64,000 nucleotides of DNA, taken from the NCBI GenBank assembly GCA_016288205.1, contig JAEEYO010000072.1:1-64000 (forward strand), written 5' to 3'. The position numbers were made by a program, and so were the translations under genes. Origin of the DNA: Treponema sp. Its GTDB lineage: Bacteria; Spirochaetota; Spirochaetia; Treponematales; Treponemataceae. The stretch's first letter is position 1. Every line of letters starts with the position of its first letter. Below the pieces are notes generated by a model. The model did not search any database, was not told where the DNA came from, and saw only the letters and a list, made by a program, of their open reading frames with translations. This document shows positions 37,180 to 40,580 of the stretch, in pieces.

Positions 37180-37596
37180 ATGCTTGTCAAAATCAGTGAA
37201 ATAAAGGTGAAAAAGCGGGTCAGAAAGGATCTCGGAGATTTGGATGCCCTCAAGGACAGCCTCAGACGCTACGGACTTCTGAACCCCATCACAATTACAA
37301 AAGACAAGGTTCTCATTGCAGGTGAAAGAAGACTTGAAGCCGCCAAAGCCATTGGTTGGGAAACAATCGGTGCGGAAGTACTTACCTACGACATTGATGC
37401 CATAGACAAGCTGGAAATGGAGATGGAAGAAAACAACCAGCGCATCCCCTTCACCGCCGAAGAAATGGCAGAGGGCTACAGAAGACTTGACAAGCTCAGA
37501 AATCCTTCCATTTTCAGAAGAATCGGAATGTTTTTTGTCCGCATTTTCAAAGCAATAGGAAGATTTTTCGCACGCATTTTCTCAAAAAAGCGGTAA
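37180..37596 (+). CDS. ParB/Srx-domain protein with amphipathic basic tail
   Basis: 138 residues. Residues 1-95 match the ParB N-terminal (CTPase/Srx-like) domain: LDALKDSLRRYGLLNPITIT, then the nucleotide-loop GERRLEAAKAIGW. The DNA-binding HTH of true ParB is absent. Instead the last 30 residues are Phe/Ile/Arg-rich (IFRRIGMFFVRIFKAIGRFF), an amphipathic helix likely to bind membrane. No parA is near. GGGAG precedes the ATG; 41 nt after the PBP gene, so probably cotranscribed. A role at the wall-synthesis site is inference. Confidence 0.75.
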   Translation: MLVKISEIKVKKRVRKDLGDLDALKDSLRRYGLLNPITITKDKVLIAGERRLEAAKAIGWETIGAEVLTYDIDAIDKLEMEMEENNQRIPFTAEEMAEGYRRLDKLRNPSIFRRIGMFFVRIFKAIGRFFARIFSKKR

Positions 37597-37654: not shown

Positions 37655-40475
37655 TCACTGGGACGGTGGGGCGTTTTCAAGCACGAGGGCCGGAACTATG
37701 CCCAAATTTTCATCGACACCTCTTCCACCGTTGTCTGCAGTACCAAACGTATCAACATATCTAACGCAGTTTGAGTAATAGCAGCTGGAACGTTGCCAAT
37801 AATAAGCCCCATATCCAGCATCCTTATTAACATGCTTACTGACAGACAATGCATAGTCGCTTGGCTCTCGTCCCCTATGACTTCCAGCGCCGCCAGCATG
37901 AGCGCTCGTGTTAAAATGATAATCGCCGATTGTAAGCTCTTTCATGCTCAAAAGGAAAATCTTTTCATTCGTTGGATTTTCAGCATAAGGATTTTTTCCG
38001 CTCTTCCACAAAGTTGGATCATTATATGGATTTGTACTTTCAGCATTATTTTCTACGCTTGTCGTGGCTATAAGATTTTGTGCGCTCGAAGTAAATGCCT
38101 TTTGCAAAAATCCTTTTCCAGAGTAGGTTTTTGCCTGTGGGTCGCCGCTTTCATATTTGCCGTTCAAGTATGCCCTCATCGTTGAGTATTTCCAGCTGTT
38201 GCCATCTATCGTAGAGACACCGATTGACCTTGTTGACTGAGAAAGATAAAATGGAATGCCTGCTTTTAAAACCTTGTCTGCAAACAAGAGAGTTTTTCCT
38301 GTTGAGTTGTAATTCGTTGTCAATGCACGCCAGTAAATTGGCTCAACCTTAAAATAATAGTCTTTGTTGTTAGTAACTGTTGTTCCGTTGGAAAATGTTT
38401 TTTTGTCAGAGGTATTATTTGCCGTCTGTTTTTCGTAAAAATATCCGTCACGTCCCAAATACCAGCCGTTATATACAGTGGTACTTGTGTACGCTGAAAT
38501 TCCTGAAACAGTCTGAGGGAAATCTCCGAACTTGTAGTGCTTGTCGCCAGAGTTGTCCCTTTCATGGTAGTTTTTATCATAAACGGGCTTCTGCGTGAGA
38601 GAGTCTTTTTTGGCAATGTAATAAGTGCCGGATAACACCGCGTTCTTTGAGATGTTACCCTCAGAATATGTTTGTGTAAAAGTCCAGTTGGAATCATATT
38701 GATCTCTTTTTGGAACGGTTGCAGTCAAGCTCTCCGTTTTTGAGGTTCCGTTCGAATAATACTTTTTGGTTGAAGTAATTCCGTAATCGGAGATTTTGTC
38801 TCCCACAAAGAAAATATTTTGGGCATGACTTGCGTTAGTTTTCGTAAAATCTAGAGTGCCTGTAAAAGTATATCCTGTAAGGAATGTCGGAATCGTCCTT
38901 TCAACCGAATTTCCCGCATAATCGGTAAATTTTACTTTCATATTATAAGTCTTGTCCGGCTGAATGTTCGTTATGTTTTTGGACAAAGTTCCGTTCGTTA
39001 TCGTTTCCGAGCTTGACGTGGAGCCGGTCACTATGATTTCAGATGTTTTCAAATCAACATAATCCGACCAGTTAAGAGTGTATGTCGTGCTGTTTTCGCT
39101 GCTGATTGTGGGTATGCTGATTTCAGGAGCCTTTGTGTCAACTGCAAAATAAAAATGGCTGCCCGAAGGATATATCAAGTGGTTGCCGCTCCTGTCCATG
39201 AAGTCAAAGACCACCTCGTAAACACCGTCGCCAAGGGAAACCTTCTCCTGCTCCAAATCCACGCTGCCCTCAAATACGGCAGTGTCCGATGTGACAGTCT
39301 GATAGTAAAGCGTAAAGCTTTTCTCATAAGTTGAAGCGGCGTAATTTACTCCGTATAATTTTTTTACTGTAACCGTGAAATACGAGTTGGGACCAGATCC
39401 TCCGTCCTGCTCCTGCACCTCTATGTTCAAGTCAAATTTAAAGTTTCCGTTCTTGATGAATTTCAAGGCCCCGAAATCACTTTTTTTCAGAGCGAAAGCG
39501 GCTGATTTTATAAAATTAGTATTGTCGCTTTTGAATTTCGCCGAAAACAACTCAGTGCTGCCTGATTTCGCAATTACAAGAGGCTTGTCATCGTTCCTGT
39601 TGTTCACCTGGTACATCCACATCTTGCTTCCGGCCATCTCCACCGGCTTTTCCTGCTCCGTGTAGAAAAATCCTTTTTCCACTTCGACCAGCACCTGAGT
39701 GAAGTCATCAAGTATGCGACCGGAATTTGTTTTTTTGTTTACAGAGATGGAAAGAGACCTCGGACTTTCGAATACAGGAGGGTTGAAACAGTCGTTGATG
39801 TTTTCTCCTGTTTTGTTGTTTATAAGCATTATGTTCTTGAAAAAAGTTTCCCCGTTTTTTTTGTAGCAGTAATATTTTTTCTCGCCGCCAATTACCTTAC
39901 AAAGAAAATCACTGTCGCTGAGTCTTTCCGAGACCTTAAGTTCTTTGCGTTCCTTTTCGCTGTAGTAAATGGAGTCGGGATCTATATCGCGGTTAAAGAG
40001 AATCTGAACGGTGGAGTCCTTGAGCATACCAAGAGAATTGGGTGTGTATGAGACAATCTGGGGCCTCGCGCTCACGATGCTCCTTACTCCGAGCTGCATC
40101 TCAGAACCGGGTTCCTTCAAAAGCTTGAATGATGTCTCGTCGCTCTTTGAGTCCGTAAACTCTATGTATCCGTCTGAGTCAAGGGATTCGCCGGTCATTA
40201 CGTTGAATACCTCCCAGCGGATGAATTCAAAATCGGTGTCGCTTTCAAAGGCGATGTTCATGCCCTGCGTGACTTTAATCGGATAAGAGCCCTTGGATGG
40301 CGAGAACTTACCCTTGGATCCATCAATCAGAATCGGAAAGGCAGGTGCATTTGCAAGGGCAATTTCATCCTCAATCTGCTGCTTGATTTTTTGTCCGTTC
40401 AGGAAATTCTCACAGGAAGTAAATATGCCCCCCTGTCAAAAGTATAGTAATTAATAGAATCTGTCCTTTCTTCAT
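37655..40475 (-). CDS. Large surface lipoprotein, frame broken at a G6 tract
   Basis: The main frame (to 40261 by ATG, but open further upstream) joins a lipoprotein signal only if one G is removed from the six-G run at 40428-40433: ATG at 40475 reads MKKGQILLITILLTG, then GIFTSC with a perfect lipobox. As given, translation from that ATG stops after 21 codons. The ~930-residue product has Ig-like beta repeats (YTLNWSDYVDLKTSEIIVTG) and a C-terminal domain like DUF6273 (YYWQRSS, GIVPALVLEN), typical of treponemal surface proteins. A GGAGT ribosome site precedes the ATG. Confidence 0.75.
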
Positions 40476-40550
40476 ACGGCACACTCCATTTATTTCTTCG
40501 CTGATGGCCTACGCAGGCAGAATCAGTTATATACACAGCTATTATAGAAG

Positions 40551-40580
40551 ATTATAGCACAAAAACTAAGCGTGTGTCAT
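40551..40580 (-). promoter_or_regulatory. Promoter of the phase-variable lipoprotein
   Basis: Minus strand: -35 ATGACA (40580-40575), 18-nt spacer, -10 TATAAT (40556-40551). A second TATAAT lies at 40546-40541. Confidence 0.5.

Follow-up and report, generated by a model that had tools for sequence, protein, structure and literature searches.

The G tract that interrupts the signal peptide of a long lipoprotein gene in the window (the whole stretch of 64,000 nucleotides analysed here) very probably represents a translational contingency switch, by which slipped-strand phase variation would turn the members of a large surface lipoprotein family on and off. As assembled, the copy in the window is off. 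In fact, frame states that resemble random thirds, intact frames under selection, a duplicated pair in the genome G005 and another pair in G026 together argue for slipped-strand phase variation rather than for isolated sequencing error or decay. In the mechanism that we propose, a fixed promoter and ribosome-binding site would start translation, and the ribosome would cross the poly-G run within the hydrophobic core of the signal peptide, while slipped-strand mispairing in replication, as we infer, would alter the length of the run. One residue class of lengths would join the signal peptide to the lipobox and to an Ig/FN3-like chain capped by DUF6273, and the two remaining classes would lead to early termination.

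This kind of switch is already known. What appears to be new is the lipoprotein family, its extent within a genus of gut-type Treponema, and the motif ACTATAC that accompanies the tract; a literature search found no report of any of the three. If the proposed switch is true, poly-G phase variation reaches beyond the promoters of T. pallidum, and gut-type Treponema has a large phasome within coding sequences, from which a single genome could display many combinations of surface lipoproteins.

The proposed switch site in the signal peptide

The features of the locus are collected in Table 1. Read on the minus strand from 40475, the site consists of ATG AAG AAA GGA CAG ATT CTA TTA ATT ACT ATA CTT TTG ACA, then six Gs, then CATATTTACTTCCTGTGAG. 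The short frame has its ATG at 40475-40473, crosses the G6 at 40433-40428, with the tract starting 42 nt inside the coding region, and ends after 21 codons with the TGA at 40412-40410, just as the preliminary description had calculated. The lipobox FTSC, which had been placed one frame over from this ATG, is indeed present and reads GGIFTSC followed by ENFLNG, and counted from the lipobox Cys (40414) the lipoprotein frame remains open over 919 codons, as far as 37655. The earlier figure of an 870-residue protein needs revision: the long surface-type frame is real, but the figure belongs to the ORF that begins at an internal ATG (868 aa, ATG 40261), while the lipid-anchored chain would have 919 residues. 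In the window copy the parts of the signal peptide and the lipobox are split over two frames, and in the in-frame members of the family, for example L002, L027 and L035, a charged n-region, a hydrophobic core and a lipobox with its Cys follow one another in one frame.

On both strands of the window the string GGGGGG occurs at this tract alone, where dinucleotide shuffles expect 19.1 +/- 5.7 occurrences; long G runs are therefore avoided in the window, and the sole one sits where the signal peptide is controlled. A small ORF with a ParB_N domain, 37180-37596 (+), adjoins the lipoprotein gene and comes after a penicillin-binding protein gene.

Table 1. Features of the lipoprotein locus, listed in the direction of the minus strand
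Feature	Position	Strand	Basis
Promoter-like site ATGACA-18-TATAAT, TG before the second hexamer	40551..40580	-	11/12 consensus bases, consensus match only; ~70 nt upstream of the start codon
Ribosome-binding site GGAG	40484..40487	-	Sequence; served as start-codon criterion
Start codon with the beginning of the lipoprotein signal peptide, MKKGQILLITILLT	40434..40475	-	Sequence reading
ACTATAC heptamer	40442..40448	-	Same heptamer upstream of poly-G tracts across the genus
G6 tract	40428..40433	-	Short frame crosses the G6; lipoprotein frame one base over
Lipobox FTSC, Cys codon 40412-40414	40412..40423	-	Lipobox conserved in paralogues
TGA at which the 21-codon frame ends with the tract as assembled	40410..40412	-	Sequence reading
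Lipoprotein open frame, tract to stop, 925 codons; mature part 37658-40414, 919 aa	37655..40432	-	Stop-free 919 codons; dN/dS ~0.23 vs closest relative
Bacterial Ig-like (Big_13-like) segment within the Ig/FN3-like stalk	38894..39040	-	Below Pfam cut-off; FN3 folds in model
DUF6273 domain, C-terminal	37676..38299	-	E 7e-16; Z 16.0 to domain of Thomasclavelia ramosa IgA peptidase, 9qa6

Gene family and tract states

Searches with the open frame gave 14 matches in the window's own genome (3.53 Mb, 77 contigs) and matches in 25 of the 59 genomes searched, all 25 belonging to the same genus. The protein family was found neither in G123 (1.1 Mb, another genus of the bacterial family) nor in ten other sister-genus genomes, for a single-member query that elsewhere matched 25 of 59. 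An origin of the window in T. pallidum is rejected on this absence and on the genome size, G123 being the only sampled genome of the bacterial family with the size of T. pallidum. The layout of the 5' end recurs throughout the family: a ribosome-binding site, ATG or GTG, lysines, a hydrophobic core with the G run (often ACTATACTTTTGAY..G(n)), the lipobox, and C[EQD]NFL. The contigs C5, C6, C73 and C71 of the window's genome each carry a paralogue with G7-G10 at the corresponding site in its signal peptide, and C21 carries two. All seven scored tract members of this genome (at least six Gs, the window copy included) are off, six of them by one base and one by two, and the tract-free paralogues on C48 and at 16 kb of C6 are in frame. 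Under equal thirds the chance of finding all seven off is about 0.06, and silence of the entire set in this strain would be another explanation.

Two further places in the same genome deserve mention. At L113 (G000:C60:117317 and 117382), G runs of 7 and 8 stand just before and inside the in-frame signal peptide of a lipoprotein of a different family. At L108/L109 (start of G000:C40, end of G000:C41), 133 bases and eight Gs are common to both contigs, which diverge inside the G run (G12 on one); this looks like the assembly graph forking at a tract of mixed length, a hint of length variation.

Across the genus, in lists curated by hand with start codons picked by ribosome-binding site, spacing and lysines rather than by experiment, the 35 tract-bearing members (at least six Gs) from 12 genomes comprise 11 that are on, 15 that are one base out and 9 that are two bases out (p 0.45 in a chi-square test for equal thirds), while members without a tract of six or more Gs are in frame in 17 of 17 cases, or 17 of 18 counting L004 (Fisher test against tract members, p 2e-6 to 9e-6). 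The tracts of the family range from 6 to 10 Gs, with 7-10 in most relatives, as read from genomes most of which are probably metagenome assemblies, where homopolymer lengths may be less reliable. The tract is placed so that its length alters the frame, lengths vary among copies, all frame classes occur and the downstream ORF is intact, as in a contingency locus.

The closest relatives of the window gene are a duplicated pair in G005, L027 and L046, which are 92% identical: L027 carries the interrupted tract GGGAGGGG and is in frame, while in its sister L046, with G9, the frame is broken. The A that interrupts the tract of L027 would stabilise it, and L027 may thus be a locked-on form. Similarly in G026, L211 with G8 is off and L212 with G9 is on, the two genes being similar. 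Compared with L027, the window gene has dN/dS 0.21/0.92 (~0.23), and its 919 codons hold no stop where the other two frames hold 43 and 62; on this estimate it is under purifying selection.

In L004 (G008:C80), an AAATC pentanucleotide repeat takes the place of the Gs, some 60-110 nt before the lipobox Cys, and the gene is out of frame. With a repeat other than G at the same place, the position seems to be selected for a switch and not for G.

As for the switching rate, the tprL tract of T. pallidum varies from 7 to 11 Gs within isolates (PMC7864442). Since six Gs are the fewest found in the family and below those of tprL, the window locus may switch seldom; it probably switches slowly or is almost frozen, and its off state may be long-lived. 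The caution that six Gs are short for slippage was in this respect a fair warning.

Alternative explanations

It would be rather unlikely that the window copy is a recent pseudogene, permanently off and decaying at a locus that does not switch. Such a fate would agree with the six Gs at the short end of the 6-10 range and with the off state of all scored tract members in the window's genome, but it agrees badly with 919 codons free of any further lesion, with the dN/dS of ~0.23, and with genus-wide states that fit random thirds and not a progressive decay. The preliminary description also thought of a consensus error, and a one-base difference in a homopolymer is in fact the typical error; yet six paralogous sites of differing length (7-10) are likewise out of frame, the same is found in genomes assembled independently by others, and tract-less and tract-bearing members should in that case not differ in frame state as they do. 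An assembly error in a gene that is truly in frame is thus very unlikely.

The frame could moreover be productive as it stands if RNA polymerase slippage or ribosomal frameshifting rescued the off-by-one state, making the gene a constant low-level expresser. Six of the seven scored members of the window's genome are in that state, but genus-wide the two off states are similar in number (15 and 9) beside 11 members in frame, with no clearly preferred state, and six Gs are short for transcriptional slippage, so that we regard this as improbable; a systematic off-by-one state, suggested by the window's genome alone, was dropped after the genus tally. It is hardly credible, finally, that the product is the 868-aa cytoplasmic protein from the internal ATG at 40261, with a non-coding region upstream. 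That ORF is what a mechanical list of reading frames gives, but its start would fall inside a conserved region, and relatives with a lipobox and a signal peptide share the conserved stretch between the lipobox Cys and this ATG.

The protein

The C-terminal DUF6273 domain (Pfam PF19789) scores 58.9 bits against a gathering score of 23.5, and Ig-like segments of the Big_13 or Big_3 type are found in several members of the family. NCBIfam and PDB sequence searches with the protein gave weak matches and nothing stronger. The AlphaFold model has a mean pLDDT of 81.5 and a pTM of 0.48, which makes the domain folds usable, while the arrangement of the domains is not to be trusted. Its residues 118-514 are modelled as a chain of Ig/FN3-like domains (Z ~9-11 to FN3 arrays), and its C-terminal domain resembles the N-terminal part of the Thomasclavelia ramosa IgA peptidase construct at 3.4 A over 204 residues with 22% identity. 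The protein may accordingly be pictured, on the strength of the model, as a stalk with a lipid anchor at one end and a binding tip at the other, although a common fold says nothing of function. We further presume that it is displayed at the surface and acts in the manner of an adhesin or antigen.

A heptamer at the poly-G tracts

In the window's genome, all six exact TACTATACTTTTG sites lie in genes of the lipoprotein family, and every ACTATACTTTTG-plus-G5 site falls at a signal peptide of this family. With at most one mismatch and within 24 nt upstream, ACTATAC is present in this genome at 7 of the 9 tracts with nine or more Gs and at 2 of 32 tracts of 7-8, and the control CATATCA at none, counts in which several matches are paralogues and which leave two tracts on C71 and C73 outside the set. 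Such genome-wide figures come from pattern searches and from retrieved portions of the genome. Across 98 genomes of the genus, ACTATAC no more than 14 nt away from a run of at least seven Gs gives 81 matches, in 38 of the genomes. The reversed pattern gives 2, and the scramble ATACTAC, with matched dinucleotides, gives 3, among them one in which ACTATAC is itself present; GTATAGT, the reverse complement, gives 16 upstream of a tract. Outside the genus the heptamer-tract matches are few. A contig scan with the exact pattern returned the Treponema records UBA3649 and UBA3870, an uncultured Treponema bin and the goat-rumen RGIG3457, all metagenome assemblies, besides scattered matches in unrelated phyla that we take as chance.

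More than half of the 87 distinct cassettes of heptamer and tract lie outside the lipoprotein family. Their genes, named by sequence reading and not by family search, include lipoproteins of the MKQLYK type (L159, L169, L203, L209), a response-regulator-like gene (L148, L180) and an aminotransferase-like gene (L129, L149), and in L185 (G019:C101) a promoter has its TTGACA and TATAAT on the two sides of ACTATACATG8. The heptamer is translated as TIL, LY or YT and occurs in all reading frames and in both orientations, and is therefore kept as DNA and not as peptide. At some cassettes (L150, L181, L208) the likely gene is on the C strand. In eight copies an exact GTATAGT follows downstream, so that an inverted repeat encloses the tract; in several more the downstream heptamer differs by one base. 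The arrangement ACTATAC-T-G(7-9)-CG..GTATAGT surrounds the tract in L030, L161, L162, L189, L194, L195, L196 and L198, mostly inside signal peptides.

In the window's genome the aminotransferase-like gene reads through its cassette in frame (L129, G000:C75:73486), while in G025 the gene is split at the tract (L149/L230, C14). In G061 a distant homologue (27% identity) is without the tract at that place and, judged by eye, about eight residues shorter, which weakly hints at insertion of the cassette. It is tempting, though for now speculative, to regard ACTATAC-N(0-14)-G(7-11)-T/C as a dedicated phase-variation cassette of the genus acting at the DNA level, inserted or kept before unrelated genes (lipoproteins, aminotransferase-like, response-regulator-like, promoter spacers) in any frame and either orientation; its heptamer might promote or control the instability of the tract, or mark a mobile origin. 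ACTATAC with a G run would also be a simple rule for listing switchable genes across the genus, and it raises the question whether bacteria have a sequence signal that turns a homopolymer into a switch. As the heptamer contains a -10-like TATAC, we also considered that TATACT might belong to an internal promoter whose transcripts begin within the G run; this was not adopted, no shared -35 being seen and the cassette occurring in both orientations and in mid-gene.

Comparison with known switches

Another treponemal surface lipoprotein with a variability mechanism is TvpA of T. denticola, which is diversified by a diversity-generating retroelement. Such an element is ruled out for the window locus, because a search for reverse transcriptase (RVT_1) in the window's genome found none, while control genomes gave matches.

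In T. pallidum, poly-G tracts in the promoters of tprE/G/J, tp0126 and tprL set transcription (PMC7864442). The likeness lies in runs of about as many Gs that switch putative surface proteins, in a member of the same bacterial family (PMC7864442); the difference is that those tracts are in promoters, while the window tract is in a signal peptide and sets the reading frame. With its tract inside the coding region, the window locus is not a promoter switch of the T. pallidum type. The preliminary suggestion of a G-tract switch is greatly strengthened by the paralogues with G7-G10 and by the frame tally, while the T. pallidum precedent on which it drew is imperfect, as the published tpr tracts lie in promoters and this one in coding sequence. 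A further comparison is with the translational contingency loci of Neisseria and Helicobacter (PMC5320596, PMC2823697), where a homopolymer or short repeat stands in the 5' coding region and which share the repeat inside the ORF, the frame thirds and the many loci per genome. Unlike these loci, the Treponema genus has a conserved ACTATAC before the tract in unrelated genes. To our knowledge no such flanking motif occurs at Neisseria or Helicobacter contingency loci, and a literature search for a flanking motif at loci of this type found none.

Beside the coding tracts, many genomes of the genus hold at least ten tracts of G9 or longer, and a common class of them is a G9 between TTGACA and a TANNNT box. 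Poly-G in the spacers of sigma70-like promoters (TTGACA..G8-9 TATAAT) is likely a second, transcriptional class of switches, and the same arrangement, with poly-G between the promoter boxes, is that of tp0126 in T. pallidum (PMC7864442). At G101:C35:49378 and G101:C47:214996, near-identical promoter regions carry G runs of clearly different length.
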